Positions 21,453 to 52,075 of a stretch of 64,000 nucleotides of DNA are shown here, piece by piece (within the stretch, counting starts at the first letter, position 1; the number at the start of each line of letters is the position of its first letter). Both the position numbers and the translations under genes were made by a program. This stretch comes from Henricia sp. BOLD:AAB3569. Taxonomy: Eukaryota > Echinodermata > Asteroidea > Spinulosida > Echinasteridae. The stretch spans positions 1-64,000 of the forward strand of contig JBBELK010000375.1 of NCBI GenBank assembly GCA_037783545.1, read 5' to 3'. Below the pieces are notes generated by a model. That model was given only the letters and a program-made list of their open reading frames with translations, was not told where the DNA came from and did no database searches.

Positions 21453-21889
21453 GGTTAAATTTTATCTCTCTAGCTTTAGGTAAACAAAGTTGGTAAAACT
21501 TAAGGCTATGCATGGTGGAAATCAACGTGTGTATGGGTTTACGGTAGCACCATGTGAATCTCATTTGTATATGTGTGGTTCTGAAAAGAACCGGTGAGTG
21601 TGAACTCAACGTTTCGAACAGCGTGCTCTGTTCGTCTTCAGCCTCGTTTGTCATCGAATTCCATGATGCCTTGAGAACGTCGATAAGGTTTATGGACACG
21701 CGTCGCTTTGGAGAAAAAAAAGCGGTATGGATGGAGGGAATTTGAAGAGAAACGACGCACTCGTCGCACTGAAAACCGAATTGCCTCCATTCTGTTTTCC
21801 CCCAAGTCTCACTAGTTTGTCAATCTGGATTACGGCCTTTGCACTGAACATAAAGTACACTAAACGATTTAACAAACGAGTGTCTTCAA

Positions 21890-22712: not shown

Positions 22713-23268
22713 CGATGTCAAGCAGTGACGCAGATCAAATTGCGTGGCATGAAGGGTACAATTATTTTCATACGTGTCATTCAACTTACATGTCATTCCT
22801 GCACACGTACCTAGTTTGCCAAGACCTTTCTGAAACGAGTTGAGCTGGGCTGTATTGAGGAATATATATGAATATTGATTAGCCAGTGACGGTGATCGCA
22901 ACTGACCAATCACGCGCCGTGTATGTTTCTCGGTCATCGCACGCAGTGCCGATATAGCGCGCGTGCACGTATCGTGTAGCGCGACATTCAAAATGCATCA
23001 TAGCTACGGACGCTGTTTCCAACAGCAAGAGCCAATCACGCGCCTCGCTCCGTTTAGTGGTAGCGTCCAGTTTTACTAGGGGGTGGGGTCTAATGTTTAA
23101 ATGAACAGTCACTGTAAGGACGTTTTTTTTAATAGGCCTAGGCCTATCTTCATTTAGATGAACTGCGTTTAGCTTTTAGCGAAATATAAAGTAAGTCTTC
23201 CTTCATTTACGAACATATATACTCAACATTATTGATCAACGCAGAACATTAGTAATCCGTTGTTCATC

Positions 23269-23777
23269 ATGGGTATTTGGCAGTTTTCATTCGTGTTCCT
23301 GATTGCTTCTGCAGTCCAAGCCAGTTGTAGTCTTGGGTGTGGGTGTGAACCGACTTGTCCACCCATGTGGACTCAGTTTAACCGCGTGTGCTACCGCTTC
23401 TTCGCAGGTCCGAAAACTTACGACGAGGCCGAGACCCACTGCCGGTCCTTCTTCGGCAGTTACCGTCAGGGTCACCTGGCGTCGGTGCACAGACAGGACG
23501 ACAACAATCTCCTGAGCACATTGGTTAGGTCCGTAACATCATCTGCACCAGCCCGTGCGTGGCTGGGAGCCAATGACAGGAAGAAAGAAGGAACCTTCGT
23601 CTGGTCAGACGGGTCACCTTGGGACTACCAGGCCTGGGTACGGGTAGTCGTAACGAACCAGACGGCGGAGTCTCCGAAGCCTGTGTAGCGATGCACGTGG
23701 GTAACACGGAGTCTTGGTCCGATGCAGTTTGCGGCAGGGAAATGACCTACATTTGCAGCCTGGACGCAACTTATTAG
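23269..23777 (+). pseudogene. C-type lectin, copy A, frameshifted
   Basis: Starts ATGGGTATTTGG with a signal peptide (MGIWQFSFVFLIASAVQA) and the first part of a C-type lectin domain: TCPPMW, CYRF, YDEAETHC, GHLASVH, then WLGAND. One G is missing near 23635-23640 relative to copy C (tgggta against tggggta). The frame then changes, loses the EPD calcium/sugar motif and last cysteines, and stops at 23686-23688. The original frame would end at 23777. Upstream sequence, including a catatatactcaac TATA-like word about 50 bp before the ATG, is as in copy B. Alternatives are a sequencing error in the G-run or expression as a truncated protein. This is the copy that received the large transposon about 1.4 kb downstream. 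Confidence 0.8.
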
Positions 23778-25160: not shown

Positions 25161-25632
25161 TTAAAGGAGTGTGACCAGATCACTTTTTTTTACCCATAAC
25201 TCCCCGGGACTTACCTTATGGGTCATGAGATTTTTATATCATAACATCCGCTATATTTTTCTGATTACGAAACTGAAACTCCCGCGCTTCTAGGCCGCAT
25301 ATTTCCGAGGATATCATCGAAAATCCACCGATTATTTGTAAACTAATTTTCCAGTACAAAAGTACGGTTTCGTCCATAATGCGATTTCGATTTACATGAC
25401 TAGCGCCCTCAATCAACATCTGAATAAGGATTTATCTTATTGATAAAAAATAACGTACACATTTTCAGTTCAGTTTATCACTTTTATTGAAATAAATAAT
25501 TTATTTTGTCTATAAACTTTTTTATAAATGTAAGATTTATAAGTGTCATTTTTTTGTGGGTGAGAAAATATCAAAATTTTTAATAAATATTGAGGTTTGA
25601 CTTTTGACCCTGAGACCATGCGTGTGGACCTT

Positions 25633-25741
25633 GGCCTTTTTCCAAATCTCGCCTTGGGCTGAGGCTCAGGCTCCGGCTCCATGTTAAAACCACATGGAAC
25701 CAGAGACGGAGACGGAGACGAAGTCGAGATTTGGAAAAGGG
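25633..25741. repeat. Short hairpin repeat (copy 2)
   Basis: Arms cctttttccaaatctcg and cgagatttggaaaagg enclose ggctcc/ggagacgg words; homologous to 8447-8555. It lies between the left transposon end and the first exon. Confidence 0.65.
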
Positions 25742-25918
25742 CATAATCTTATTCACTGTTGTTTGGGTCGTGGTTTTGTTTACGTGATCTGTCTGGTGAT
25801 CGATCATCGCCAAGAGTTCTGAGTTGGAAAGAAGTAGTAATTTTTGCGGGTAACATAATTTTGGCGGCCATAAATGTTGGTAGGCTTTACCTTCGTGAGT
25901 CCGCGTTAGTCTAGTGTC

Positions 25919-28900
25919 ATGCCGCGGTTTGGACGGCGTGGTCGGCCAAGGGGCCGAAGCAGGCCAGCTCATGAGCCGGTAGAAACGACTCAACATGCTC
26001 AACAAAGGCGTTCGTGTTTGGCGCGGGAAACGTCCGGGACACATGGGACAAAACTCATTAGAGTTAGTGTATCCACTTGGAGGAAACTTCAAGTGATAAA
26101 GTCGGAGAGGAGCACCACATCAGTGGAGGAAGTCCTGCGTGTGCTCCTTGACAGGTAGGCTAGCCTAAAAACAGAAATGGCCAGAGGACAGTGGACAGAC
26201 AAAATTGTGACATTTTTGTCTGTCCACCGTCATGACCGTTACATACGTAGGCCTAGGCCTATATGGAAAATTTGTACACAAGCTTTTCAGAAATTTATGT
26301 TGTGGCAGCATTTTCTAACCTGTGGAGAAAACAAAATAAATGTAATTTTTTATTAATCATTAATTTCCGTTTTTATTCTGCCTTTGATGCAAATCTTGAC
26401 CAATCTCTCTTGTAGATGTGTTGGTCCTGAAAAGGACCGGTTGTTTTGAACTGCGACGTCTGCCCCGGGATGCGCTGGGTGCGTATGCTTGGTGTGAAGT
26501 CCAGCATGAAAAAGGTTGCCATCTTGGTGAACTGTAGGACGCAATCTTAATCCCTGGGAACTTGATACGTACATCTCTATGATGATGCCGCGCGTCGGTG
26601 ACTAACAGGAGCGGGTTTGCATGACTGGCTTAATCTCCTTTGTGCATCATAATTGACTGGGTAAGAAACGACTTGGGTACGAAACGACCAGGGTACGAAA
26701 CGACCAGGGTACGAAACGACCAGGGTACGAAACGACCTGCTTCGGTTGTAGTGGGAAAAGGCCTTTTGCCCCCATCGCCACTTTGCCCCATTGCAACTGA
26801 AAAACCCTATATTGTCTATGTATGTTTATATTACATCAGGTATTACATCCACCAAGTAGTAACTGCAGGCCCAGCTATGCAATATAGGCACAGTTCTTAT
26901 GATCCACCTAGCACATTGTCACGACACCCTGATGACCTGGCACAACCACTCATGCCATCACCACCACCACCACGTGGCCATCGCCCTGTACCGGTAACCG
27001 TACACGAGATCCCGTCAGAACCCCTTCCATTACCGGTACGGGGTGTCAGTGGCTTGCCGACCCCTCAACGCCAAAAGGCATTTGGTGACATTGCTACATG
27101 TATGATTCCACACAGTGAAGGGTAAGTAAAAAGTAGATACGGGAATAACAACATGCTTGTTTTGATTGGCATACTTACATGTACACGTATGTAAAAAATG
27201 GGTTCAACTGTTCAACTGTTGGGGTACCGTGGCCGAGTGGTTAGGGCCATTGACTCGCAATCATAGGTCAAAACTTGGGGTTGCGGGTTCGAATCCGGGT
27301 TCGAATCCGGTTGCGATACCTGTGCCCTTGGGAAAGGCACTCAACCACACTTGCTCCATCCTTCAGGAGGGATGTAAAGCCGTTGGTCCAGTGTGTTAGG
27401 TAATGGTAACGCACTCTAAAGATCCCAGAGCATTCTTTCGTGAAGAGCAAGGGGATTCCCCGGTGTCTGTGGCCATTTCTAATTCTTCATGGGTTTCCTC
27501 ACGCTTACGAGTGACAGTGCAATGAGCACTATTGAGGAATCCTTGGTATGAATACCAGAAAGAAATAATAATAATAATAAATCGAAGTACCCTAATGATG
27601 CAATCAATAATTCCCATCCAGTTTGCATCAATTATGGTATCTTCAAGAGTAGTTCACACATCCACTAATCTTACATCTCTGTGGCAAATGCATCTCCTTG
27701 ATTTGAAATTCTTGCATTTCTGAGTTTCATCAAATTTGTGTCAAATTTTGATTTTTCTAAATAACTGAAATACTGAATGCATAAAAAGTGGTTGGGAAAT
27801 GTTTCATCTTGTTTTGGAAATCAACATATTTTTCCATCTGCAATGCAAAATGTCAACAAGTTTCATTACGGGGCTTTTTTTCCATTTCTGAACTTGTGAA
27901 AATATTGTCCTCATGCTTGTATCACACATTTCTTTCCTCATCAGATCCTACGTACCCGAAACACCTAATGTTGAACGCTGGTGAGTTTGAACTGTAACAT
28001 CAACTTTCACATCATCATCAGTAGCATAAATTTTGTTTGTAGGGAATCCCTATTATAGAATGTTCAGTCTTTAATTGTATTACATTGAAAGTGTTGTAGG
28101 GTCTGTCATTCATGTTATCAGTACTGTTAGTATTACAACAATGGACAAATCAAACATTTATTCAAAATTTATGGCTTTCCATAATGAATTCTCTTACAAC
28201 TGTTTGACTGTTTAAAAAAAAACACCTGACGTTTTCATGTCTTGTACCGGTACTTGTACTTGTACAAAACACACACATACGCACACCATCTGGCACGTAA
28301 CATAACATGGATGATATGAATATGCACGAGCCCTGATGATGGATGCCATTTGGGTTGTTTGACGTAAGTGCTTACCGTGCAACATACAAATGTTTGTTTT
28401 GTTACTTGCAACACTTGCAACATACATGTATGACTTCAGTTTCTTTGCTTTCCCAGTTAATCTTATTTGCCTAACTTTGACTTACATGTAATTAACCCAC
28501 AATTAATTTGTTTTTTATATTTAGGAAAAAGGTGGTTCCTCCTGTGGATGAATCTCCAATTGCATGGTAACATAAACATGTCCTATTTATTATTATTTTT
28601 CTGCTGACTGTATAGCATAATACCTTAACTCATGTTGGTTATACATGTACATGTTATAATACGAGCTATAAAGAAATACAGTTAGTTCATTGTTGAGCTA
28701 AATTTCATTTTTGAGCTAAATTTAACAGTCGCTGATCTTCAGTGGTGGCTCACAAGAACAAGTTAGCATAAACTGTTGATAAACTAACAAATAAACAACT
28801 GCATATAAGTCATCTACATGTACAACCAATCCCGAAAAAAAGTGTAAGCCAAATCAATGTTTGTTGGGAGTTTGCTGTATGAATAGAGCTTCCTTAATCC

Positions 28901-31900
28901 GGTGGTATGTCTAGGCATAGTAAACTGTTAGGGCATTGTGTCTATTTTTTAATTTTTGTCTACTGTTATTTGTATTAAATTTAAAACTTGGAAATGGTCA
29001 ATTTTAAATTGCATTTCACCTGTCGCTTTGTAAGTGTGTATTTCATTGTATTTTTCAAAAGGGACATTAGATTGCCTGCTGAAGATGATTTTACTGATAC
29101 AACTTTGGAATATGAAGGAAGAGATGACTCTAGTGAATTGAGTGAGTCCATGGAGTCCAATGCGTCTTTTGAATCGGAGTATAGTGACTACAATGAAGAG
29201 GGCTCATTGTACGCAGTCAGTGCCCCTGATCCATCCGATACTGATGCTGAAGGCCTATTGGAGTACATGAAGCATGTAGGCTTTCATTTAAAGTAAGTTG
29301 TTTGCTATGAACACAAGCTTGGAAGAAACATCACTGAAGTAAATTTTTGTGTGGGGTACCTTGGGGTACCATGGCTGAGCGGGTTAGGCCATTGACTCGG
29401 GTTAGGCCATTGACTAGGGCGCTTTTACAGGGAGTCAAAAGGTCCCGGGTCACTATTGCTTACCTTCCAGATCGGGAGAGAACAATAGATATGATAGAGC
29501 CACGAACCACATGGGGAAACGCACGTGGCTGCTAGCAGAAAAACATGTGGCTCTATTGTTCCCTACCGTTCTGGAATACTGGAAGCAATAGTGACCCGTG
29601 AGTAGGGGTGGGAATTAACGGTTAAAAAGAAGAAATGAAAGGCTTACACCATCGTATCAGCGCAATAACATGAGTGCAGTGAATGTACTCAAAGCATCAA
29701 GTAATGGGGACAATATCAACAACATTGTGGACCCTGAGGGAGATGCTTGAAGGGGAAGGGCTGCAGTATCACCCAGTGACATTACTTCTCTGGTGTTAGA
29801 GGAACAAGAAGTAACAATTTGGATGCAGTGGCCTTTAACCACACATCGCTTTCATGAATATGTTATGCACTGATACATGTACACGCTGTTAATTATGTCA
29901 ACTGACAGCATTTCTTGCAATCAACCCTTGTGGAGTAAAGGTATACATCTTTGAGACCAAATGTATTCAAATTTTTGCCCCATCTTACAGTGTCAAAACA
30001 GATGAAGTTCGTGATTTCGAATATGGGGACGAGCTGGATCATGAACTTGATTTCCACACTGTAGCTCAGGGAACTGATTTGGAGGATACATCAGCAGAAG
30101 CAACAGATGAAGAGGTGGATGAACTTATCCGAGTAGAGGTCATTGAGGAGACACATGACATGTCTACCATCGCGTATGTGAACTGCTTGAAGAAGCTGGC
30201 TGCCATCCAAGTGCCAACAACTTGCAGAGTACGACATTGCTTATCAGAGATTGAACTGGTCGTGAAACAAGTTGGCTCTGCAGTTTACCTTGAGTGGGTG
30301 AGTAAAACGCAACAGGTTTGTGATTTGTGTTGTATTGTTGTTGCTCTGTCATACAATTACAATGCAATATGTGAAAACTTGGATGTTGTTGATTGCCATT
30401 GTGACATGCCACCTCAAAATGAAGAGGAAATTCCAGCTTTGTGTTATTTCAAACCATCGAAGGCTATATGCATGTATCAGTATATGGTAAATGTGAGACT
30501 GTAAAGAGTTGCAAAAAAGTACACAAGTGTATGTACATTGTATGTTTTCACCTGTGGGTTTTGCAACTGACCAATTATCATTGTTTGTGCTTGATTTTTC
30601 CACTTGTCATACATGTATACAGGTATGTCGGGACCAACATCACACAAATAAACGGTGGTGCTCCCAGCCTCGTTTCAAGCATGGGCAACATGTTGGCGAT
30701 TTTGCTCTCTGCTGTGGAATACTTTTCTCCGGCAGTAATTACAAAAAGGTTTCCACACTCCTGTATTCTGTGAACATGAAGCCACCTAGCCAGTCTACAT
30801 ATACACGAGTGCATGGGCATTATGCAGTGTCAGCAGTGGAAGGCCTATGGGAGAGGGTAAACCAGTCGATCCTTGATGACCTTGATTTGAAAGACATTGT
30901 CCTCCTTGGTAAGATTTGTATACATGACCACAAAACTTGTTAAAGCTGCTTGTATGTTGAACAATGGTGAATAAATTGCTTGTTGACTTACATATAAAAT
31001 ATATATATTAATTACGGTTTGTTTTGCCCTTACCTGACGTATATTAACAGTGTATACTCAGTGCTTTCTCGGGACTGGAACCCACGACCTCCTGCAAACA
31101 AGGCAGACATCTTAACCACTTGACCACCGAGCTAGCCGGTGTTAAATGGCCGGTTCAAATCATTGATCCATCATTTGACAATGGGGATCGCAATTAATCA
31201 GTACGGCTTTGACTTACATATACTGCACAAGGTCATTATCCTCCTCTCATAAAATGTTTGGTGAATGTTCAGTCACATAAGCTTTTACTGTTTGTATCAA
31301 AGTAGGAAAAATGCAGTCAGACTGTATGGAGGTACTTGGGCCTTTTATCTTACAGTATCAGCTTAGTGCATCACATATCACTAACCCAGCTTTAATTGGT
31401 GGAATTGTACAAGTCCTGAAACTCTTGTGAAAATATTGCTCCTGTTATTCAGTTAAATTTTATGTGCTGAGAGTTCATTCATGGCAGCAAAACCAAAAGG
31501 GCCATTCCCATGCTAAATGATTAAAATGCACATATTTAGCATTTGCACTAGACATGCACTCTAACTACAAGATATTTTATTCTTGTGTAATGCACTTTAC
31601 AGGTGATGGCCGGATGGACTCTCCTGGTTTTAATGCACAGTTTTGTACATACACGATGATGGAAAACGAGTCAAAAAACATTGTGCATTTGGAGGTGGTG
31701 GACAAACGACAAGTGGGAGGTAAATCAACCAACATGGAGAAATACGGCTTTGTCAAGGCTATGGAAGTTTTGAAGGAGAAGGGGGCATCCATTTCGGAGG
31801 TAGTTACAGATGCACATTGCCAAATCCTGTCAACTGTCAGTAAGTAATACACGTTTGTGCCATTCTGTACTTAATTTGCAAATTGGAATTGATTAAGAGT

Positions 31901-32718
31901 TAACACTTTGAAGATCATGGCCATAGTTCATGCCCTTGAATGTACATTTATTCTACTCATCTACATGTATGATTGCACATTATCCTCCGACATAATTTTC
32001 TGACATTGGCCTTTTTCACAACCCCAGCATTAGATCTGGTTCATAGTTCAAGCAAACATGAGATGTCATACATTTTGCAGTGAACACTTTAGCAAGTTCA
32101 AAATAGTTCAACTTCATGAATTTTATTGCAAGTTAATCACCCTGAGACATCAAATTCACATTTGTGATGTGAATTGTGAGCTTAATGTTATTTGTTATGA
32201 CTTCTGTTTACAGGGAAGTCGTATCCAGAAACAAAACACTCCCTTGATGTCTGGCATGGAGCAAAGAATTTAGGCAAGAAAGTCATCGCTGTGAGTGCTT
32301 ATGTTTTCTTCGCGACAGATGTATGTTGTTTAGCATGAACAGTACTCATGTGTTGGGTAATCTGTTGTCGTATGGGTTTAAAAGGAATTGGTTTTGATTG
32401 GTGTTGTGCACTTAGATGGGGTTCTAAGGTGATGCAAACTGCTCTGAAGGGGGTGGGGTTGCAAGAATTCAGTGTGGATTAACGGTCTATAACACAGTTT
32501 TAATATCATTTTTGTATCATGTGATACTTTAAATTGTTTTTGTATCCTGTATACATTTGGTGTGTGGGGAAAAACAGAAACAATTAAAAGTGGTTTGGTT
32601 CAGATATGTGAGTTAGCAGTAAGAGGTCACAGATGATACATGGAAAGAGCTGCAAATATTGTTTTCTGTGCACGTTTCTTGTTCATTTTCTTGTTCACAA
32701 CATAATTTATTAGCACTG

Positions 32719-32764
<46 letters not shown>

Positions 32765-35367
32765 TTAAGATCTGAACCACTAAACCACTGATCAGGCCAA
32801 GGAGTTCAGATTCTGTTTTTCAAAGAATTAACATTATTCAGTTTGTTGGGTTTTTGTTTGGTTGTTTATTTGATAAATACAATGTATATTGTTATTGTTT
32901 TATTTTTCAGGCTTCAAGTGAATATGAGTGTGGAGGTTTACTGCCGTGGACTTCACACATAACAAATCACTTCTGGTATTGTGTAAAGGTCAGCTCTACT
33001 TACGAAGAGTTCGTGGCAAGTATTAGTTGCTGATATTATGACATAATAGTGAAACCACTTTGACATCAAAATTGACGGTCAAGCGAAACAGTTGTCCCAG
33101 TGATTAAATCCCTTTTTTTCTTTTAGAATAAGTTAAATTCTTTGTTACATTTGGTCTTGTCGTTTTCTCTGAAAATCACACTATCTGTTAGTTATGTTCT
33201 AAGTCTGGAGTGGAGGTGATTTTTATTTACCCATGTTTAATCAACTTGCTTGACAATTTGTTTTTATCCCATAGGCCAAATGGCGAGGTCTCCTCCACCA
33301 TGTGTCAGGAGAGCATGAATGGCTTATGACTGATGGGTTTGACTCCGGAAAATGTGATCACAAGCCACTTGAACACCATGCCGACGACACGAAAGAGTTA
33401 ATCCCACAAGGGACTAAAGCACACCTCAAGCTGAGAACCATTGTGTTTAATACACGTTTTCTTGCCAAAATAGAGATGTACCTGAATTTCAGGTGAGTAC
33501 AGTAAACTCTCTCTTCAAGGGCACCAAAATAATTTGAGCTTTATATCCAGAGAGCGCTATAACCAATGAAGAGAATAATGGCCGAGACTTAGAAAAGGGA
33601 GCTTTATATCAGGAAGAGCTTTATATAAGCTTTATATGCATGCAGCACAGAATTGCTGGCCCATCCTTTCAGTAGTGTCTGATATTCCCGTAATCAGATG
33701 TTTTTCACATACACGTGGCTTCTGAAAGTGGATTACAGAATAATGGTTTTACAGGACAAACCATTACCTGTTGTAATACTCCATGCTTATGGAGCCACTA
33801 TGTATAATTTTTACATTGTTCATCATATTCCACACAGAACTACTTCAGAGTTGGAGTCTTTCAACAACAAGATTCTGAGCTTTGCATCGAAGCGGTTTGC
33901 ATTCCAGTTTCCAGGGTACCGTGCCAGATGCCTCCTGGCTGCACTAGACTACCAGGAGAATAAGTCAAAGGAGCCCATCATGACAAAAACTGGAGCACAC
34001 AGGTATAATGGTAACCGCATGAGAATGTGTATACAGTCGGTTCACAAAAACTCACCCTTTTTCTCAAAAATTTGTACTAGGAAAACATCATGGACTATCA
34101 AAATTACCATGGTAACTGTCTAAACATTTGCTGGTAATGCTGAAGCACAGGGTTTATTTAGTGTATACCAAGTAACTTTGGCAACACATGAAGGTTAATG
34201 TTTTAATAATAGTACTGGTGGACACTTGTATAGCGCACATGTCTACCCTACAGGGTACTTTTAGCACTGTTGCCATTATTACCGCTGCCATCAGGAAATC
34301 ACCAGAACCATTTTGATTCAACTAGGTGGCTACCTGGCCAAGGCGCACAACCCTATCAGCAGTTAGATTGTGGCATTTCCACTAACAGCTCGCCAGATAT
34401 CGCTAGGGTTAACAAGGCAATTGAGATTAAGTGTCTTTCCATCGGATACAAACACATTGGCACAAGTGGGGCTCGAACCCATAACCCTTGGATCACGAGC
34501 ACAGCTGTACACCCACTAGACCATACATTGTTTATCTATTCTGTATGTTAGTCACAGCATCACAGTTATTTGAGACGGAGCATTTCGTCGGTGACACCAC
34601 GAACTGACACGCAATGGCACTTCAGTGCTCGTCTCGGGTACAAAATGAGGTCGGCACATAAATTGTGTTTTCACGAAGTAACACCTATCGTAAATTACCG
34701 AATTTGCGGATATCATTCGTATGGAGCATTTTCGAAGCTTTTTTTGAATACCAGTTCGTGGAAACAAAATTCATGCATTTGGAGTCTGTGCGCGACACAC
34801 TTGGATGTCAGTTCGTGACAATTTGTGTGGTTTTCACAAACTGTAACAGAAGTACACTTAGGTGTCACTTTGTGATGTTAGGCAAAAAACAAACAAGACT
34901 TATGTTTAGCGTTAGTGCGTGTCACTTTCAACCCTGCGCGTCAAAGTTTTTTGTTTTACTTAGACACGCACCGTCTGTTGAGTGTTTCGATTAAAAACAT
35001 GCCTTTATTGCTTGGAATCCAACTTACGCTAAACATAGTTTGTTTGTTTTTGGCCTTGGCGACGATGGTTTCATGCCACCATGGACGCATTGATGAATTT
35101 GTTTTTAATTTCAGGCTAAGGAGGTTATATCGCAAGCGTTCAAGCACCTGGGATGTCCTTTACGAGAAGGAGAAAACCCACAACTACATCAAGGATCTCA
35201 TGGACATCGGCATAGCTGATAAAATGGAACATCCAGAGAAGTACACCAAGAGGATACCCATTGCAGCCTATGATCCCAGAAGAATTGCACCTCAATCGGC
35301 TAAAGTGCCTCCACCTGCAAGTAGAGACATTGAGATGGCAAGAGTAAGTCGCTTTGAGAAAAAGTAA
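25919..35367 (+). CDS. DDE transposase-like protein, 812 aa, 12 exons
   Basis: Exons: 25919-26154, 26840-27121, 28525-28566, 29062-29292, 29991-30297, 30623-30908, 31603-31839, 32214-32290, 32911-33015, 33275-33492, 33838-34002, 35115-35367. All phases agree and the sum is 813 codons including stop. Ten introns are GT-AG; intron 9 fits best as GC-AG. An in-frame TAG lies 12 nt before the ATG. The N-terminus is Arg-rich with an AT-hook-like RGRPRGR core; residues 60-80 resemble the VSTWRKL module of this family. A Cys/His cluster (C342, C347, C368, H372) may bind zinc. The catalytic core has D463 in GDGRMDSPG, D531 in VVTDAHC, D552-VW-H555 (the C/D(2)H motif) and E680 in ELESFNN. Residues 187-330 are acidic. 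Probable role: cut-and-paste transposition of the surrounding element. AATAAA occurs at 35672. A donor-like AGA/GTAAGT near the end allows a longer alternative C-terminus. Confidence 0.82.
26655..26740. repeat. 17-bp tandem repeat in intron 1
   Basis: About five units of ggtacgaaacgaccagg with small changes in the first and last. Confidence 0.85.
27219..27580 (+). mobile_element. tRNA-derived SINE in intron 2
   Basis: The head has A-box TGGCCGAGTGGTTAGGG and B-box GGTTCGAATCC at tRNA spacing; the B-box piece is duplicated (gggttcgaatcc twice). The body contains cccttgggaaaggcactcaa, a block common in marine invertebrate SINEs. The tail is (AAT)n at about 27566-27580. Confidence 0.85.
29349..29640 (+). 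mobile_element. SINE head with nested hairpin MITE in intron 4
   Basis: The tRNA-like head (gtaccatggctgagcggg, with a duplicated ttaggccattgact) is followed at 29446-29598 by a hairpin whose arms start cgggtcactattgctt. No SINE body follows, so the head is truncated. Confidence 0.6.
31060..31145 (-). repeat. tRNA-like sequence in intron 6
   Basis: Minus strand: GGCTAGCTCGGTGGTCAAGT (A-box), then GTGGGTTCCAGTCCC (B-box). The acceptor stem is not paired; probably a SINE head. Confidence 0.55.
32721..32760. repeat. (CT)20 microsatellite in intron 8
   Basis: Twenty uninterrupted CT units, about 150 bp before the exon 9 acceptor. Confidence 0.95.
33495..33640. mobile_element. Tigger/pogo-like MITE fragment in intron 10
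   Basis: Begins CAGTAAACTCTC, like the complete element at 37073, and contains gagagcgctataacc and repeated gagctttatat words. No right end found. Confidence 0.55.
34195..34535 (-). mobile_element. SINE in intron 11, minus strand
   Basis: The minus strand starts TGGTCTAGTGGGTGTACAGC (A-box region) with B-box GGTTCGAGCCC, followed by a body ending in gcgctatacaagtg. This matches the general tRNA-head SINE layout. Confidence 0.65.
34550..35100. other. Intron 11 remainder, weak inverted repeat
   Basis: A ttatgtttagcgttagtg block (34899) and a cttacgctaaacatagttt block (35022) are roughly inverted. No gene is seen apart from exon 12, which begins at 35115. Confidence 0.4.
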
Positions 35368-35771
35368 ATTCTCAGGAACACCGCTACCGTATTTTATACT
35401 GAAGTGTACTGGTTTTACAGTGTATTTATAAGCATTTGATCTACATGTACCAGTAAAACAAACAAAGGAAATTGATCATAGTAAATATACATTTAATTAC
35501 GAAAATAATCATTTGGTATGTACATTATGGATCTTGTAATTTAATCTACTGTACACGTAATTACATGTGCTTACAAACCAAATATCAGAAGAGTACGCTG
35601 TACTTCAAAACCAGTTTTCTTAAAACTTTACCTGCTTCATCACCTTTCTCCCAGCATATCAATTCTGTAGCAATAAAAAGGCATTAATCACACTTTATTT
35701 GTATATAACTCAAAGACATTCATCTTTGCTATGGCAGGTCACAAATTAATTAAACATGAACAAAAGTGAGT

Positions 35772-36343
35772 GTTTCATACAGGCTCACCAGAGTCGTGCC
35801 AAACTGATTGTATTGCGACGCGAGTCGTTCCGATTAAAATTGGGTTTCAGACGGGCGTTCTCAATGCAAGTCGTGTGCACACTAAAGAGAGACGTCTAAA
35901 ACCAAGTCGCTCTTACCGACTGGAACAGTAGAATTTTCGACTTCTTGCGAACCAAGTTGCACCAAATTGTTTCATACGTCAATGCGAGACGAACAAATTT
36001 TTGCCACAAAATTCACTGCACTTCTTACTAGCTGGGCAGTCAGCTGTTACGATCCCGGATGGTACATACAAACACACTGTTTGCTGTCAAGCGCACCTGT
36101 GCCCTCCGGGATCGTAAGAGCTTGGGCAAGGTATGAAGCGTGGTGAATTTCATGGCACGAACACTGAGCAACTAACATGGAAATTGGGCACACACCATTG
36201 TTAATAACAATGGTTTGTGCCCAATTTACATTGTTAGTTGCTCATAGTGGAACTAGCTCGTCGGGCATTGAGGAGCCTCCGTCTTTAATTGAAATATATG
36301 GGATGATTTACTTTGGCGCGACTCTGGTGCGCCAGTATGAAAC
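35772..36343. mobile_element. TIR element of about 570 bp between the two transposon genes
   Basis: Ends GTTTCATACAGGCTCACCAG and, inverted, GTTTCATACTGGCGCACCAG. Internal palindromes occur around 36048-36116 (cgatcccgga/tccgggatcg) and 36180-36240 (attgggcacacaccattgtt and its inverse). The target duplication is unclear. Confidence 0.65.
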
Positions 36344-36379
36344 AGGTGTTACCCACCCTGTAAAAGCTGTACTTTGTCA

Positions 36380-37070
36380 ATTCAAATTACATTGAAAACC
36401 AATCAAGCTTATTGAATCGTCCTTGTCATGTTTTAGGTATCATCAACAGAGAAAGGTGTTTAATTCACAAGATAAGTACATAGTTCAGAATGTACAATTA
36501 AACTTTCAAGTGTACTTGTACATTTTAATCTTCATGTTTGTGTAAATAAAAACTTGCATTACGAAATATATTTGTAGTTTTGATGCATTGCTTATTTTTA
36601 TGGTTGCTCCATCCATCAGCACCAAATTAACTGGTTCTACCTACATAAACAATGCATTGTTCATCATCAACCTTTAGTAAAAGAAGGGATTACTACATAA
36701 CACTACTCACATACAATAAGTACTTAGACCCTCGTTTCGATGACAAATTGAAATTTCTCAAAAGTATGCAGATATATTATTGAAGGTATGCATTTCGGTG
36801 AAATGATTACACAATTGTATCTGCATGACAGACACAGCTTGTCACAGGAATAGGTGAAAACAGTCATTTGAAAAAAAGACTTGCAGTACAAATATCCCTA
36901 ACTTATTGCGAGTAATGTACTTGTTTTTAATTCTGCTCTTATAAGGCTTTATAAACTGCTTTAAAAAAATTTAAAAAAAAAAACAACATTTTACAGCGCA
37001 CATAATTAAAGTTTTACATGGCTTTCAACCACACTCCGTCACCTCCCTTATTTTGGATGACATTTTAGTA
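36380..37070. other. No gene recognised between the convergent genes
   Basis: A/T-rich; contains A-runs near 36965-36983. No exon, RNA or transposon end supported. Confidence 0.4.
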
Positions 37071-37072
37071 TA

Positions 37073-37760
37073 CAGTAAACTCTCGTTATAACACCCCTGT
37101 TATAAAGCTTTCTCAGTCCCAGCCATTATTCTCTGCATTGTGTATGCATTGGCACTATGAGCAACTAACAATGGAAATGCATAGTTCCGAGATTGCCCAG
37201 TTAACCCCGCCCCCTTGGATATTGTTGCTATGTGCTCACAAGCCATTGCAAAAAAATTGCGAGACTACGTACAAAGCAACGGGACTCGGCATGGAAAGCA
37301 CAGATTCATTGGAGAAAACCCAAAGGTATTTATGTTTTGAGGTCGACAGTTACCGTAGCACACACTGAGCGAAGGGCTAGTAATGCAGGGATGACATATC
37401 TTTCATAAAAATGCGCTTTCCTACCTTTGAACAGCGAATCGCCCAACATTGAAACCAAAATTCACCCGGTCACTGGCGCATACAACATACAAACTGTATG
37501 GGCAGAACATCGCGGATTGTTTGTGATGATTGCATCACTTTGACCTTTGTGGGCGCCGTCTGCTAGCTCTGTTGTGATTGGTCGCGGGTTCGGCTTGATT
37601 GACAGGTCGGAACTATGCATTGGGCACAAACCGTTGTTATTAACAATGGTTTGTGCCCAATTTCCATTGTTAGTTGCTCATAGTGTGGTTATAGCACTCT
37701 CTGGATATAACGCTAAAATTATTTCGGTCCCTTGAAGAGCGCTATAATGAGAGTTTACTG
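37073..37760. mobile_element. Tigger/pogo-like MITE with TA duplication and nested repeats
   Basis: The inverted ends CAGTAAACTCTCGTTATAAC and CAGTAAACTCTCATTATAGC are flanked by TA (37071-37072 and 37761-37762). Inside, gcactatgagcaactaacaa (37151) is inverted at 37660-37686, enclosing an inverted copy of the satellite-core tail (37420-37615) and a perfect cattgttaataac-type palindrome. This makes a three-level nest just downstream of the ballast-domain gene. Confidence 0.75.
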
Positions 37761-37830
37761 TAAACACAGATAATACCTATTGGAGTCATATAATGCTAAA
37801 CCACATGCTTTAACAAAAAAAAACCTTGCC

Positions 37831-40800
37831 TCAATCCAGTCGGGCATGACGAAACCCAACATAGTAACCATGTGGGTCGGGGTATCTGCTCCTTATTTTC
37901 AGGACACAACAAGATGGTATAACTCGTCGATTTCCGATCCCTAATTGGCCATGCTGCCACAGGATATATTGCCTGTAGGCTGCATGGCGGAATCGTTTGT
38001 TTTCTTCAGATGTATTCCGCTGATGACCCCTTTGGTCTTGGTGTGCTGGAATGTGGTACACATCCGCTCGATATAGTCTTTGGAGCATCAGAACAGCTTC
38101 GTTCAGAACAAGGGCATCCATTTCCTTTTGTTTTTTTGGAGGGGTGCAGAGAGGGGGGGCAGATAGGGGGAGGAAAGTGGTACCATTAGTATCCATGGTA
38201 GTACAGTAACATGCAGTTATAAATGTTGGAAATGAACTGAAATTTTCAATATTGAACAGACAAAAATCTTGTGGAAATATTTCAAAACAAAGAAGGTATA
38301 AGCTTCATAAACAATAATATTGGGTGATATGGAAATATACCGCACTTGTCATGAAAATATCGAACTCACCTTCGGCTCATTCAGTATTGTCACGACTCTT
38401 GCGGTATATTCCCATATCACTCTCAAAGCCATCCAATATTATATAATTCCACTCGCGCTCACGGGATAATCAATAATGACCAACAACAGATAAACAAAGG
38501 GATAACAAAAGATATTTTTTATGTCCTTGAAGTTGAGCACTGAATCTCTTGTTCTAACCGGTTCTTCATCGTATGTACCCGTTATGTTCTTATAATTAGT
38601 CACATAAACCACGTGTCGACAGATTAAGATAAATGGTCATATACATGTACAGCGTAGGCTAAAACAGTTTTTGCAAACTTCGGAAAATCTTGTGGCTGAG
38701 GCCAGTTCAAAATTCAAGCGAAAGAAAATGTCAATGCAAATCTGACGTTGTATAATTTGCAATGAACATTCACACAAGTTTAAACATTTTGCAAAGTCGC
38801 AGTGACACCTTCACATTTGCATAAAGTACATGTATGAAGCAGGCTTGAGTGTGAACTGTATCTTTCAGAGACAACTGTTTACTTACTCCTGCCTCTGACA
38901 CACAATAGTCTGGGTGGTTTAGACAGCATCTATTCTCAACTGGATCAGGCATCTCAGTACATCGTGTGCAAACACACCAACTTGGAGGCGGCTCCTGTAA
39001 CACTGGGCTGGTAGGGGGTGGTGTCGTAACTCGGGGAGGGGGTGGTGTCGTAACTCGGGGAGGGGGTTCCTGGTGTTGTGTCTCCTGTGTTTCTGCAGGA
39101 CCAGGGATTTCTTGGTCCTGCTGTAGTAGATCCAGCGTGATCCCTGGATATTTTATTGCCATTTTACGCACAATCCCTTTTAGGAAAGCCAAGGAAGCCC
39201 TGTCCACTATTTCCTGAAGAAAGAGATAAATACAGTTTACATGTACATCCAGGAATGACAACTATGGAGACCTAACTCATCCAGACAAATGAAGCAAATG
39301 CCCATTCATGGTGCGTGTACCCTTGGGCAAGGTACTGTGCCACGTATTGCTTCTCTCCACCCAGGAGCAAAATGGGTACCTGAGAGGGTAGCAAATGTTC
39401 ATGTGTTTGTTTAGCCATTGAGCGCCCAAGAAAGCCTGGGCTGTACACTCCCCAGAGAGCTGAGATAGTATATGGAGCAATGTAATGGAGCCCCATCATC
39501 AGGGATACTGATAATGTATGCGCCTTGATTGGGGTTCCCCAGATTAGTGCACATTATAAATCCATATCATATTATTAGTATAATGTGTTTGTAAATTTTC
39601 GCTACATTATGAAAGTTTGGTCCGTTCACATGTATTTACAAATCATATGCTGAAAAGTACATAAAGCACAGTGGAAAAGTTCAATTACTGCCAGCATTTT
39701 ACTTAATTAATTGAACACTGGCATTATGTTCTTAATAAAAAGTAACAAAGCTGTACATTACTTTAGCATCTGAAGCTCTATACCTTTATTTTCCTCTTCC
39801 TTTCATCTTCAAATTGAACCAGTTGTTCCACCTGTTGGGGATCAAAACGAATTCCCCCTCTCTTCACCCTCATTCTTCCACCCCTTCTTCCTCTTCGGCT
39901 TCCTCTTCGGCTTCCTCTTTCTGCTCTTGGCAATGGTTGCTGAAGTGTACCCGCTCCTTCCGATACATGCTGTAATTTTGAAATACATTATGTGTAATTG
40001 ATAAAATTTGCTTATCACTGCATGTATAACAAAAAATACAAGAATGACATATCCACTGGAGAATATAAATTTGTATTTGCCAAAATATACAAGGAAACAT
40101 TTATGCATTTTCTGTGTTCGGTGGTTGTCATCAACCTACATTTAGCTTCATTTTTTTAAAACCCATTTCACGACTAACATCAAATGGCATTCTACAATCC
40201 TACATGAAATTATACATTTTAAATTTCACTGCAGTCAGAACCTTTCATGTTATGGGTCTACAATACCTGTGATTGTTCTTCTACATTGCTCCTCCTTCGC
40301 TTCACTCTGGATTTCTGCCGTCCCCTGTGTCTCCTTTCCGCCACCTGCAACTGATTAATAGGCAAGACAAATTTGACTTCCATGTCCATACACAAAGCAT
40401 TTATTTGTACATGTACATGTACATGTAGCTTGTTATGAACCCTATCGTAAACTATATAAAGTGTGAATTTGATATTAAACAGATTTGGCTTTTTTTTAGA
40501 ACGGCCGTAAATCTACTTCAAAATGTTATTTTGACATGATGACTGACACTTTTCAGTCACTTTACCTCATCACCACTTCAACCTAGCTTAAAACTTTTGC
40601 ACAAAGTAAAACATTCATGTTATTAGTTTTGTAGGAAATGAAAAATGCAACACCATGCCAAATCAATGACATTTATAAGTATAGCAAAACAATGCAGATA
40701 TGTTACTATTGTTCTTAACAACATCAAAATACATAGATATGGTCGGATTCATTACCATCACGAAGTGGTTTTGCCGATGGGGTAAAGTGACCAATATCAA

Positions 40801-41035
40801 AAGTTGCCATCAATTATCACTTAGCCTTCAGGCCTTAGGGCATTTTAGGCCAAATTTGGCTTGAGTGTTTCTGTTAGTGTTACTTACTGTTAGTGTTGCA
40901 GTTACTTACTTCGACTCCAGCCTCAAGCTCTTCAGCAGTTGTTGCACTCGACTCCGTCTCTGATTCTGTATCTCTCTCGTACTGAAGTTGCCGTTTCGTC
41001 TGCTGTTGTGGCTGTCCTTTGCGTTTCCCTTCCAT
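37831..41035 (-). CDS. P2X7 cytoplasmic (ballast, P2RX7_C)-domain protein, 336 aa
   Basis: Exons on the minus strand: 41035-40910, 40344-40267, 39969-39784, 39213-38887, 38124-37831. All introns are GT-AG and phase 0, and the frame is open to the stop. Residues 1-130 are basic with an RGSRRGSRRGRRGGR stretch. Residues 166-208 are Pro-rich with a duplicated RVTTPPP. The C-terminal part has C210-x-C212-x2-C215-x10-C226-C227-x6-C234 followed by FRHAAYRQYILW (284-295), GNRRVIPSC (303-311) and a YPDPHGYYVGF end. That is the order of conserved blocks in the Zn-binding, nucleotide-binding intracellular domain of vertebrate P2X7. There are no transmembrane segments and no P2X ectodomain. It faces the transposase gene, 2.46 kb away. 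The reading frame is open upstream, so an ATG at 41140 or an upstream exon could extend the N-terminus. Role in the element is unknown. Confidence 0.82.
38125..38886. other. Intron 4 of the ballast-domain gene
   Basis: Contains a G-rich (C-rich on the sense strand) run at 38148-38172, next to the exon 5 acceptor, as a long polypyrimidine tract. No nested gene. Confidence 0.6.
39290..39560 (+). mobile_element. SINE body without head, intron 3 of the ballast gene
   Basis: Contains gtacccttgggcaaggtact and a gcaaaatgggtacctgagag block typical of the SINE bodies seen at 27.3 kb, but lacks the tRNA-like 5' part. Confidence 0.6.
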
Positions 41036-43438
41036 TTTCTTCTTTTGAAACACAAATATAAATAATTGAGTAGGTGACCATGGCTTCACTTCAGACTTTG
41101 TTAATAAAACATTATTAGTCTGACACCATGTGTACTTCAAAACTGAAGTACTTATGTACGCACAGTCACTTGGACCATATTTGACTTTCCATGTTTTTTT
41201 TAGTTTGTTCTACATTGTAGCAAAAAGTTGGCGGAAGCTGGAACACATGTTATTTGCACATGTATAGAAAAGCATTTCTACATATGTGGAAATAGCAAAT
41301 GCCATTTTTTAGGTTGCTGGGTTCATTAACCATGCACAGACACCCAGGATTTTCCTTTTTATGATTTATAAACCGTGTAAAACAATTGCAATGGTTAAAA
41401 TGTAATGATTTTACTAAGGAAAACGTGGAAATGTTTGTCTCATACATTCAGTCCGTTGGGTTCCAGTGGGTGTCCGTGCACGGTATTCTTTTCAAATTTC
41501 AAAGTCAGGGTATCCTCACTACGATGTTTTTGCATAAAATATGCACTTTCTGGTGCTTGATGAGTCATTTTACGGAAAAATAATTATCATCAAACTCGCA
41601 ACTCTAGTACTCTGACATGACCGTGTAATACCGTTTTTCAACTTTTTAAAACGATTTAATCTGTTTCTTTCTCTTTCCACCGCATACCCTCTGACGGATG
41701 AAGGCATTGTACCTTGGAAAACGTGGCGAACGTGTACGGTGTGGTATTTATACCCTCAAAATCAACATGATCAATATGATCCTAGCAAGTTAGGGTTTAA
41801 ACAAACAAAAATAGTTAAACTTATTAAACTTCAATAAGTGCAAATCGAATTTTTAAAAACCAGAATTTACAGGGGCAAAATATGGGTGTGGGTAATTTGC
41901 GGAACTTTGCAGAACTCTGCGGAACTCTCCGAATAACATAGAACAGGTCCCATTGCCTCATAAAAATGTGTGCAAAATACACATTGGCAGGGGGCTATTG
42001 AAGGCTGCGGAACTCTGTCTTCCGCATCATGGATGGAAAGTTATATTTTCCACCCGGAAGAGTTCCGCAGCCCTGAATAGCCCTCACGCATCAAAATATG
42101 AAGCACCCGATTCTTGAGTTTTCCTTGCGATAATGTCACTTACGCCTATTCATTTTGACAAGGTGTAATTGTTTTACTATGTATTTTGTTGGTAACAATC
42201 TTTTTCTTTGCTATTTTCCCAAGGTTCTGCAAAGTTCCGCAAGTTCCACAAAATACCAATTGCCGAAAATATGATTTTAGGCCTAGGCTACTATTATACT
42301 AGTATTAACTTTGAAATTTTTTTCTGATAAGTTTAGTGCAGGACAGTTTATGTGATATCCGACTTGTACATTGTTCTTTCTTCTGGGTCTAACACGTGTT
42401 GGCATGGTCGCTGTGAGGTCCCCACCGTATTCATCAGCCATTGTTCAATATTAAAGTGGCAATTTCATGGACCTGACGACTATGCCAACATTTATGTTAG
42501 ATCAGCTGTGTCAGCCAGAAATCCATGAAAATCAATGTTGGAATCGTCCATCCATAACAAAGTGAACAGCTATAAAACAGCCTATATAAATCGGTGGTAA
42601 TTTTACTGGGGTAATGTTTGTAAAAAGTGCCTATATTGCATATTTGCAATTGTATAAATAGCATAATTTAGAACGCCTACCGATCTTTTGAGGTCGATCT
42701 GTCCGTCTCAATCACTTCGCAGGCTGTGATCAGTGTCAGCTCAGTGATCAGGTCGCAGGGGTCAGGTGGTTTGGTCAGGTGCCAGGTTGGAGGTGGTAAG
42801 CTAGTAAGTAGTATAATTATCAACACATAGCCTATATCACGGTCATTCAGATGCAGACTTGTTGAAGAGAGCCCAACGAGCGACAAAGGCAGTCCAACAT
42901 GCGAGACTACATTCTTCTACGCAACAAAATGTTCCCAAATAACCAAAAATCTTCACAAGCACCGAGCACGTAAGCTAACGCAACAACCATGCATCAGTCG
43001 TGGGCGCCATGTTTGATATCCGCGTGCGTGTGTTATCTACATAAACGCGTACATATAATTCATTTTTCTTCATTTTGTGTTGCTTAGCTAATCAAGAAAA
43101 ATATTTTCAAGCACAAGTACAATTTATACGTTACACATTTTGTTAAATAAATTATTTAATGTAAACAAATGAAATATCAAGACTAAAAGTACTACAAAGG
43201 CGAACATACATATGCATGAGTCAAGACTTCAGCCTGACTGAGCGTATTCAGACTGTAGAGGGCGGGCTTCATGCAAAGTTTCTCCGCTGACAGCTGCTCG
43301 ATAGTTTTGTTCAATTTTTTACTGGAAATCGCGAATGTTTTCGGGTTTTTTGTACATGGGAGGTGTGTATGGGAGTTACTTGATAATATTGGTAAGTTAC
43401 ATCGAAAACTATTTTCCAGAAACTCTGGTCACGCTCCT
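41036..43438. other. Right arm of the large transposon, non-coding
   Basis: Presumed promoter and subterminal region of the ballast-domain gene. Holds a foldback at about 41993-42085 (gctgcggaactct / agagttccgcagc). A gggagtta word near 43371 mirrors taactccc near 25197 at the other end. No further gene supported. Confidence 0.5.
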
Positions 43439-44544
43439 TTAAGTTTTGCACTCAAGGTCTCAAGTCACGATCGACCAGAGATCGACCACTAATTTTGTTC
43501 CTATCGTCGCGGTTTGGATGACGTAGCACGTCTGGTGACGTCACAAAATTGCTCATGAATAATTAATAAATAGTATGTTAACGCTTATATATCCATGTGC
43601 AAAAATCTAATTTACGAATAAAATGAGTGTGCGAGACCTGCCTTGTCTGCTGGAAAAATTGTATTTACGTCTGTTTACAAGAAAAAGGCGTGACCTCGTG
43701 GTCACGTGTCGTATACAATTTTGGCCAATGAAGGCGCCAACCAATTAGCCCGTCCCACGCCTTTAAGGCGCTGGGTACGAGCGAATGTAATCCCCAGCGG
43801 ACAGCGGGTGATTCCAGAGGTTGTCATTTTAAAGTTTGATTTGTGTAAAACATTGCATGGCTCAGAACAAACGGAAAATAAAAATATAAAAAAATAAAAA
43901 ATCATCAAAGATTGCACATTAACAATAGGCCTTCTGATCGGTATAATCCATTTGAGAGAAAAACAAAATAATTGTCCTTTACCATTGTTTTAAAAAAATG
44001 AAAGTTGGCATGAGTTTGCAAAATGTTGACATGATTCAGTGTTTCATTGTCACGTGCTGATTCCCGCGCTAACCTTGACTTATCTTTAACGACACTAAAA
44101 GTATACCTAACAAGGTTCTTTTCGTAATCACGTGAGTTATACCCAGCACGATATGTGGCAAGTGGACTCTCCCCCTCCCGCTAACGCCCCTATACCTCAA
44201 CACACTCTTCCCTTTTGTTAACGCACCAACAACACCCCTACAAACTGAAAGGAATTCCTTGAAAATTCCTTGGATGTTTGAGACACAAAGGGGAACAATG
44301 GTTGGGGGGATACCCTCTGCCACATATCGCGCTGCATATGACGTAAGTTATCTTGCGTCACAAACATAGATCATTTCCTACAGTAATCTGTAATCTCGCC
44401 TTGGTTGAAAGTTTGTTTGCATATTCATAGCAGAACCCAGTCCTGCTTGTAAAATATACAATCATGCTGGGCAAAACAAGCAAAGGCAGTTACGCAACTT
44501 CACTTATACATGTACTTCCCATACTTTACCTTGCAGTAGGCCTA

Positions 44545-45219: not shown

Positions 45220-46215
45220 ATTGTAGATTGGGTGATTGTCAAAAAGAAAAGAAAACAAAGTGAGGTATGTTGACGTCGTCAGAAGTCACAAAAATAAGAC
45301 TGTACTTTGTTTAAAGTTTCTTCCAAGATTCGTTTTTAAAGAGGAGCATGACCACATCACAGAAGAATACATAGTTCGAACCTGTCAATCAAGCCGAACC
45401 CGCAACGATCGAGTAACGACTGCAGATCTCCGCGTGTCATCTGTCCCGTACGCCATATGGTTCAATGTATACTGTTTTATTGTGCTCCTCGATTACTCGC
45501 GATTAATACATGTTATGTTACATATGTGACCTAGCTACATGCACGGGTCGAAGGAGAATACATAGTTCGAACCTGTCAATCAAGCCGAACCCGCAACGAT
45601 TGAGTAACGACTGCAGATCTCCGCGTGTCATCTGTCCCGTACGCCATATGGTTCAATGTATATACTGTTTCATTGTGCTACTCGATTACTCGCGATTAAT
45701 ACATGTTATGTTACATGTGTGACATAGCTACATGCACGGGTCGAAGGAGAATATATAGTTCGAACCTGTCAATCAAGCCGAACCCACAACGATCGAGTAG
45801 ACTGCAGATCTCCGCGTGTCATCTGTCGCGTACGCCATATGGTTCAATGTATACTGTTTCATTGTGCTACTCGATTACTCGCGATTAATACATGCTATGT
45901 TACATATGTGACCTAGCTACATGCACGGGTCGTGGAAGAATACATAGTTCGAACCTGTCAATCGAGCCGAACCCGCCGACCAATCACAACGGAGCTAGCA
46001 GATAGCGCCTACATAGGTCAAAGTGCGTTGCCTCACAACGACATCACACGATTTTCTGTACATACAGTTTGTACAGTGTTGTATGCGGTGATCCGGGTGA
46101 ATTTTTGGTTTTAAGGCCAGGCGATTCGCTGTTCAAAGGTAAGAAAGCACGTAATTCATGAAATATTGCGCCCTCATGCACGCAACAGCTCGTATGGACA
46201 TTACATGTATAGTTG
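45220..46215 (+). repeat. Satellite-core element with three monomers
   Basis: Leader from 45220, monomers at about 45370-45535, 45535-45725 and 45725-45915, then the conserved tail to about 46215. The largest core in this window. Confidence 0.85.
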
Positions 46216-50329: not shown

Positions 50330-50920
50330 AAATTGTAGATTGGGTGATTGTCAAAAAGAAAAGAAAAAAAAGTGAGGTATGTTGACGTCGTCAGAAGTCA
50401 CAAAAATAAGACTGTACTTTGTTTAAAGTTTCTTCCAAGATTCGTTTTTAAAGAGGAGCGTGACCACATCACAGAAGAATACATAGTTCGAACCTGTCAA
50501 TCAAGCCGAACCCGCAACGATCGAGTAACGACTGCAGATCTCCGCGTATCATCTGTCCCGTACGCCATATGGTTCAATGTATACTGTTTCATTGTGCTCC
50601 TCGTTTACTCGCGATTAATACATGCTATGTTACATATTATGTGACATAGCTACATGCACGGGTCGTGGAAGAATACATAGTTCGAACCTGTCAATCAAGC
50701 CGAACCCGCAACGATTGAGTAACGACTGCAGATCTCCGCGTGTCATCTGTCGCGTACGCCATATGGTTCAATGTATACTGTTTCATTGTGCTACTCGATT
50801 ACTCGCGATTAATACATGCTATGTTACATATGTGACCTAGCTACATGCACGGGTCGAAGGAGAATATATAGTTCGAACCTGTCAATCAAGCCGAACCCGC
50901 CGACCAATCACAACGTTTTA
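50330..50920 (+). repeat. Satellite-core element, two monomers, tail truncated
   Basis: Monomers at about 50470-50645 and 50645-50840. The tail stops after accaatcacaacg, where copy A (20670) continues for another 240 bp, so the 3' part is deleted here. Confidence 0.75.
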
Positions 50921-51640: not shown

Positions 51641-52075
51641 GTTAAATTTCATCTCTCTAGCTTTAGGTAAAAAGGTTGGTAAAACTTAAGGCTGCATGGT
51701 GGAAATCAACGTGTGTATGGGTTTACGGTAGCACCATGTGAATCTCATTTGTATATGTGTGGTTCTGAAAAGAACCGGTGAGTGTGAACTCAACGTTTCG
51801 AACAGCGTGCTCTGTTCGTCTTCAGCCTCGTTTGTCATCCAATCCCATGATGCCTTGAGAACGTCGATAAGGTTTATGGACACGCGTCGCTTTGGAAAAA
51901 AAAAAAGCGGTATGGATGGAGGGAATTTGAAGAGTAACGACGCACTCGTCGCACTGAAAACCAAATTGCCTCCATTCTGTTTTCCCCCCAAGTCTCACTA
52001 GTTTGTCAATCTGGATTTCGGCCTTTGCACTAAACATAAAGTACACTAAACGATTTAACAAACGAGTGTCTTCAA

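Follow-up and report, generated by a model that had tools for sequence, protein, structure and literature searches.

A probable full-length Kol0-type Kolobok transposon with open transposase and KolX frames in one of three lectin copies of Henricia

In the 64,000-nucleotide stretch of Henricia DNA analysed here (the window), one copy of a triplicated lectin unit, copy A, is interrupted by a segment of 18,274 bp (25165-43438) that the paralogous copies B and C lack, which raises the question of what this segment is, when it arrived and whether it may still move. The segment is bounded by copies of TTAA: on the left side, TTAA (25161-25164) is followed by AGGAGTGTGACCAGA (25165-25179, + strand), and on the right side AGGAGCGTGACCAGA, which occupies 43424-43438 on the - strand, borders on TTAA at 43439-43442. 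The two ends are terminal inverted repeats of 15 bp that are identical at 14 positions and differ by one mismatch, so that the TTAA-flanked transposon announced by the preliminary description was borne out at 25161-43442. The exact end pattern occurs at these two places only within the window, while up to two mismatches yielded 5 matches there (0.14 expected from shuffles). The termini read AG...CT, in keeping with the 5'-RR ... YY-3' rule for Kolobok termini (PMC9587614), and the 4-bp TTAA target duplication is the one that the Kolobok superfamily requires. A self-comparison of the element found no terminal direct repeats.

The two paralogues provide the evidence on timing. Both the left and the right flanks of copy A are collinear at copies B and C, where an alignment of all three showed the flanks running on across the site, which reads TTAT in B (55452-55455, + strand) as well as in C (60257-60260, + strand); the continuity and the TTAT reading had been described correctly, at positions (55441 and 60245) that were about 10 bp off. 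The left flanks diverge by 2.8% (A-B), 3.1% (A-C) and 1.5% (B-C), and the right flanks by 4.1%, 3.8% and 5.4%, respectively. As two uninterrupted paralogues are most simply read, the element would have reached copy A after the lectin unit was duplicated, a sequence of events that the absence of the element from both B and C supports; gene conversion, or a loss of the element in both B and C, would be a less simple account. The insertion is thus "datable" in relative order, and not beyond that. The difference between TTAT and TTAA agrees with copy A having had TTAA as the target, since a TTAT target would leave TTAT on at least one side. We also queried the genome with 401 bp spanning site C, scoring 40 of 1,499 candidates. 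Among the matches listed, the right flank was found in A (split), B and C only, and the other 36 places match just the first ~172 bp of the query, which marks that part as a dispersed repeat; neither a fourth lectin copy nor an empty A allele was seen among the 40 candidates scored. The lectin itself has a sole match at E ≤ 1e-10, in Patiria miniata (42%).

On its + strand, the element carries a predicted Kolobok DDE transposase gene (25919-35367) of 12 exons and 730 aa, whose frame is open throughout. The modelled exons lie at 25919-26154, 27945-27980, 28525-28566 and 29062-29292 (exons 1-4), at 29991-30297, 30623-30908, 31603-31839 and 32214-32290 (exons 5-8), and at 32911-33015, 33275-33492, 33838-34002 and 35115-35367 (exons 9-12), where exons 1, 2 and 3, the latter two being the shortest, rest on phase and splice sites more than on alignment. 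Ten introns are GT-AG and one, after exon 9, is GC-AG: a GT donor after 32988 was dropped in favor of the GC-AG donor after 33015 because the GT donor left a 10-column gap in the alignment. Residues 300-600 found 99 homologues, 14 of which were aligned with the window model as it then stood (721 aa, whose numbering we use for residues). In these 15 rows, D381, D449 and E589 are invariant, as are D470/H473 (the DxxH motif) and H519, H524, C537 and H539, the last four of which, in our own reading, would fit the published H2CH finger between DxxH and E. The D381-D449 segment, read by eye, has no CCHC finger. A Pfam search at E up to 1 found no THAP domain in the modelled proteins, and among the 14 aligned homologues THAP is listed for just one, the Xenopus row P0091. 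In a tree of 27 rows (26 of the 99 homologues, with no reference rows of PMC9587614 among them), the branch leading to the window transposase is long and no sister group to it is well supported.

Tail-to-tail with the transposase, on the opposite strand, lies a second predicted gene (37831-41035, - strand; exons 41035-40910, 39213-38887 and 38124-37831), encoding a KolX protein of 248 aa. Its frame is open and contains the P2X7 cytoplasmic ballast domain PF20478 (E = 1.7e-27): residues 118-244 align with the ballast domain of the P2X7 receptor, cysteines included, with P2X7 chains reaching 1.8e-13 at best. In contrast to the receptor, KolX has no channel part and is a stand-alone transposon protein; KolX has been proposed to be ancestral to the tail of the P2X7 receptor (PMC9587614). 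We aligned it with 8 of 108 relatives. Pfam found no nuclease domain in either modelled protein.

These features make it very probable that 25165-43438 is a full-length Kol0-type Kolobok DNA transposon inserted at TTAA in lectin copy A. The TTAA target, the AGG-RR ends and the Kolobok-type DDE transposase uphold the original Kolobok/T2 assignment, which the KolX/P2X7-ballast gene narrows to the Kol0 type. As a kind of element it has already been described, namely as the Kol0 lineage of the Kolobok-1_XT type (Kojima and Bao 2022, PMC9587614), and what is new is an added member. Judged by the published description rather than by that paper's alignments or Repbase entries, it shares with Kol0 the TTAA target, the RR...YY ends, the DDE and DxxH residues and a KolX with the P2X7 ballast fold; it also shares the absence of a CCHC finger after the first D, a finger that marks KolobokP/E/D/5 (PMC9587614). 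It differs from the published Kol0 in its 18.3-kb length, its 12-exon transposase model and the absence of a detected THAP, a domain that we treat as a usual rather than a defining Kolobok trait. Two other candidates were rejected. PiggyBac has the same TTAA target, but RR/YY ends are not its trait (PMC9587614). KolobokP, of the same superfamily, likewise encodes its transposase and a second protein on opposite strands (PMC9587614), but the element lacks long terminal direct repeats, and its second protein is KolX rather than a His-Me nuclease.

A further comparison is offered by the Xenopus XKol elements and T2-MITEs (Hikosaka and Konishi 2018, PMC6004289), which have in common with the present system TTAA, AGGRR ends, the DDE and H2CH motifs and the coexistence of large autonomous elements with abundant miniature ones. 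The ten full-length XKol elements measure 6.8-13.9 kb (PMC6004289), so that "very large", as the element had been called, holds in relative terms for its 18.3 kb. The XKol transposases were derived from ORFs that are long and unsplit, usually with THAP, and words that start with exon or intron are absent from the main text of that paper.

The interior has itself received insertions. A miniature element at 36162-36249, with GAA on both sides, is by its motif presumably CACTA-like, and another at 37073-37760, with CAGTAAACTCTC at its ends and flanked by TA, is one that we take by motif to be Tc1/pogo-like; the latter contains a TGG-flanked element of 533 bp (37153-37685). These nested elements, which account for ~0.8 kb of the 18.3 kb, show that the element's lineage is of some age.

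The ends recur throughout the genome. A search for further copies of the 15-bp end returned 2,864 + 2,919 = 5,783 exact matches, as against 0 for a reversed-pattern control, and the objection that no second locus might carry these ends thereby falls. Among the first 100 matches listed, 60 form facing pairs 300-420 bp apart. The miniature elements compared, which are ~359 bp long with AGGAG ends, match the element's first 192 bp (25165-25356, + strand) and last 165 bp (43274-43438, + strand) joined together, and they have the terminal AGGRR of T2-MITEs as well as TTAA on both sides in 20 of the 22 examined. Against the majority sequence in an alignment of 20 miniature elements, the left part of the large element differs at 2 of 192 positions and the right part at 7 of 165, i.e., by 2.5% overall, with the excess mostly on the right, while the miniature elements differ from that majority by 1.25% on average and from each other by 2.3%; a left-end sequence filter, which excluded 2 of the 22 loci (L052 and L068), biases these divergence figures towards similarity. 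L052 looks like a member of another miniature family. To judge from these sequences, the miniature family is young and the element looks like its only full-length relative, the transposase core having matched strongly here alone. Ends that are 2.5% off, twice the miniature average, mean that this exact copy may not be the direct parent.

The assembly yielded just one full-length copy, so that movement of the 18-kb form is attested by the lectin paralogues only. Three other facing pairs less than 25 kb apart (0.7-3.7 kb, among the 100 listed matches) proved to be neighboring miniature elements or diverged ends. A KolX match elsewhere (C195) was likewise rejected as a second element: the 40 kb around it hold just 401 bp that match at 94%, 465 bp of a nested repeat at 79% and no exact 15-bp end. 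The pairing of the two genes does recur. Beyond the window, a transposase relative and a KolX relative are no more than 10 kb apart at 11 or more places, 10 of them tail-to-tail, where ~0.05 would be expected at random for 39 KolX and 49 transposase loci; the count used 50 of 53 KolX and 52 of 61 transposase matches (the 3 and 9 within the window being left out), and the 61 are those scored among 292 candidates.

Taken as a working mechanism, the DDE transposase would bind the 15-bp ends, excise the element and insert it at TTAA with duplication of the four bases, with the ballast-fold protein KolX as an assumed cofactor. The miniature elements would have arisen when this element, or one closely related to it, lost its interior, and its transposase would have moved them. 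We infer that the insertion is young, and the intact frames are consistent with an element that may still move.

Whether it does so divides two further readings. A serious contender, though short of an even chance, is that the same element inserted recently and, with its frames still open, is now immobile for want of expression or activity. The single full-length copy and the nested insertions would suit this, as would the point that a transposase serving many non-autonomous and few autonomous copies alike lowers the spread of the autonomous ones (PMC6004289). Against it, nothing in the frames, splice sites, ends or target duplication is disrupted, and both genes would have survived neutral drift of at least 1% with a chance of at most 3% under our assumptions. 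More tentatively, the element may be the one surviving active autonomous Kolobok of its family here, an intron-rich, THAP-less Kol0 that drives the miniature family. In this tentative reading KolX would act as a cofactor, the miniature family would number well over a thousand copies, and further families with only the 15-bp end in common may be driven as well.

We consider it improbable that the host has domesticated the transposase and KolX as a pair whose ends persist by chance, even though a gene that is intact, rich in introns and present once, with relatives that have diverged, would look like this and a passage of PMC6004289 reports that Kolobok transposases were repeatedly domesticated in Xenopus. 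The ends and TTAA are intact, the catalytic residues are conserved and young miniature elements carry the same ends; moreover, two paralogous copies are without the element, which is thus no gene fixed long ago. An insertion older than the duplication, with later excision from B and C leaving TTAT as a trace, is quite improbable: TTAA is indeed read in neither copy, but loss would be needed in both or in their common ancestor with just one base altered, and the open reading frames speak for recent arrival. Very improbable, too, is a 359-bp miniature element hit by an unrelated 17.9-kb insertion that merely mimics a large transposon. Such an event would equally make the two joined ends equal a miniature element, and the CAA present at both inner junctions would suit either a 3-bp target duplication or microhomology at a deletion. 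Against it, the interior lacks terminal inverted repeats (10 of 25 positions at best), and its two genes, for a Kolobok transposase and KolX, are precisely those that TTAA/AGGRR ends would lead one to expect. An assembly chimera at 25164 and 43439 is scarcely credible, as it would not set matching ends and TTAA exactly where two paralogues run on.

Apart from the genes described, ARAGORN found no tRNA, and Rfam found just two histone 3' stem-loops, both outside the element. With the full-length Kol0-type Kolobok reading, a large miniature family of this genome gains a full-length partner. Together with so abundant and young a miniature family, a transposase and a KolX that are both intact would make a defined system of two proteins, a short substrate and one target, and an intact autonomous Kolobok with KolX would be useful for asking what KolX does.

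The Kolobok transposon at 25165-43438 lies between two copies of its TTAA target, found by sequence inspection at 25161-25164 and 43439-43442, which enclose 18,274 bp with the ends AGGAGTGTGACCAGA (left) and AGGAGCGTGACCAGA (right). The exact end pattern occurred in the window only at these two ends, and allowing up to two mismatches gave 5 matches versus 0.14 expected. Near-matches of the 15-bp end, AGGAGC[G/A]TGACCACA, at 45342-45356, 50454-50468, and 62225-62239 follow TTAAAG within repeated flanking segments and are perhaps the ends of another related family. The element's flanks are collinear and unbroken in two paralogues, lectin units B and C, where the site reads TTAT; both the junctions and the continuous flanks of the preliminary description were thus borne out. 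When the 740.7-Mb host assembly was queried with 401 bp over site C, the right flank was found, among the best 40 of 1,499 candidates, only at unit A (where it is split), B, and C, and the 36 further places listed matched only about the first 172 bp, which is a dispersed repeat. No empty A allele and no fourth lectin copy occurred among these best 40 candidates, and the assembly likely contains neither.

With the element present in A and absent from B and C, the claim that it arrived after the lectin duplication is essentially right. The flanks of A differ from those of B and C by 2.8-4.1%. B and C diverge from each other less on the left (1.5%) than on the right (5.4%); given this unevenness, the units may have exchanged sequence, and we give no clock for the insertion. 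In a simple model based on our own assumed indel-to-substitution ratios, the chance that both transposase and KolX stay intact after 1% neutral drift was ~3% at a ratio of 0.1 and 0.02% at 0.3. This result favors either purifying selection on the genes or an arrival that came well after A separated from the other two units. The element also harbors at least three nested miniature elements that belong to other kinds (36162-36249, 37073-37760, and 37153-37685, flanked on both sides by GAA, TA, and TGG, respectively), and these may have arrived before or after its insertion at A. When the lectin frame of copy A (23236-23685) was compared with those at 53435-53983 and 58235-58774, it differed from copy C by one base near its end, possibly a sequencing error; the resulting frameshift makes its predicted C-terminus unlike those of B and C. 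Elsewhere in the window, the histone 3' UTR stem-loop had two minus-strand matches of equal score (21552-21597 and 51736-51781), and a tandem protein-like repeat (unit ...LREYTTV..SAGRAS...) occupies two overlapping minus-strand frames at 3115-3962.

The transposase gene (25919-35367, plus strand), predicted by joining open segments at splice sites, has 12 exons encoding 730 aa. Ten of its introns are GT-AG and one is GC-AG; the GC donor was chosen because a first model lacked residues present in aligned homologues. A search limited to residues 300-600 of a 721-aa model returned 99 homologues, the top ten with 44-49% identity across that region and with hemichordates and bivalves among their hosts; lancelets and fishes appeared lower in the list. 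In 721-aa numbering, D381, D449, and E589, the DxxH pair D470/H473, and H519, H524, C537, and H539 were invariant in 15 aligned rows, the last four residues being consistent with the published H2CH finger. Pfam detected PF20700 (Mutator-like, 2.5e-7) and no THAP domain in the model. The N-terminus starts with an RGRPRGR stretch resembling an AT-hook. Two related intronic stretches (27219-27257 and 29361-29399) resemble tRNA-derived repeats in their motifs; ARAGORN found no tRNA, there included.

The predicted KolX gene (41035-37831, minus strand; three exons, 248 aa) encodes a P2X7 ballast domain (PF20478, 1.7e-27), aligns over residues 118-244 with solved P2X7 receptors (best E 1.8e-13), and could be aligned with eight relatives. 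Searching the host genome with both proteins gave, outside the window, 39 KolX loci and at least 49 transposase loci, a lower bound from the best 61 of 292 candidates. Among the matches listed, 11 KolX-transposase pairs lie ≤10 kb apart, with ~0.05 expected at random, and 10 of the 11 are tail-to-tail, as in the window element. These ten places, on contigs C62, C122 (two), C142, C363, C364, C373, C556, C599, and C808 of the host assembly (G000), are probably further Kol0 elements. KolX would be a partner of the transposase and not a passenger, presumably acting as a cofactor. Among the best 61 of 292 candidates, at least 14 transposase matches span residues ~378-460 and at least 25 span ~515-594, close to model exons 7 (380-458) and 10 (520-591), pointing to the intron-rich form as a lineage within this genome rather than a peculiarity of one copy. 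Some relatives differ in this respect: the C599 and C62 matches run for ~450 residues in one open frame, without introns.

The search for other TTAA-flanked loci with the same end was successful: The host genome contains 2,864 exact copies of the 15-bp end on one strand and 2,919 on the other (reversed control, 0), and TTAA stands on both sides of 20 of the 22 miniature elements examined. From 60 of the first 100 end matches listed, 30 facing pairs 300-420 bp apart were obtained, and extrapolation from three contigs gives ~1,700 exact end pairs genome-wide. Two fully read miniature elements are 359 bp long and consist of sequence that is 93-98% identical to the first 192 bp of the element joined to its last 165 bp. 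Twenty aligned copies differ on average by 2.3% from each other and 1.25% from their majority, from which the element's ends differ at 2/192 and 7/165 positions, making it about twice as distant as the miniature elements themselves. The first eight loci represent six distinct places, and at three of these (L001, L003, and L006) the sequence next to the exact end was different or only distantly similar, so several families have this end in common. The transposase core DNA (31500-33500) matched only itself and three ~50-100 bp stretches (4/4 candidates scored), and the one other close KolX match was a 401-bp piece at 94%, a pattern pointing to a single full-length copy, which may drive the miniature family. 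The miniature elements would arise by internal deletion of the large form, with the CAA present at both inner junctions as deletion microhomology. This CAA could also be read as the 3-bp target duplication of a foreign insert that entered a miniature element, but the interior lacks inverted-repeat ends (best 10/25 positions) and carries both genes expected of a Kolobok element.

Kojima and Bao (PMC9587614) describe the Kol0 lineage of Kolobok as pairing a DDE transposase with KolX, from which the P2X7 tail is proposed to derive. The element shares the target, ends, catalytic residues, and partner gene, but the THAP domain usual in Xenopus Kolobok transposases is absent from its transposase model. 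Its earlier reading as Kolobok-like was essentially right. According to Hikosaka and Konishi (PMC6004289), T2-MITEs have TTAA plus AGGRR, and ten full-length Xenopus elements measure 6.8-13.9 kb, compared with which the present one is larger and intron-rich. In a 27-row transposase tree, it sits on a long branch with no supported sister, so that the basis for the Kol0 label is KolX and the motifs rather than the tree. The element is a new, large, apparently intact representative of an already published transposon type, and may, judging from its sequence, still be competent for transposition.
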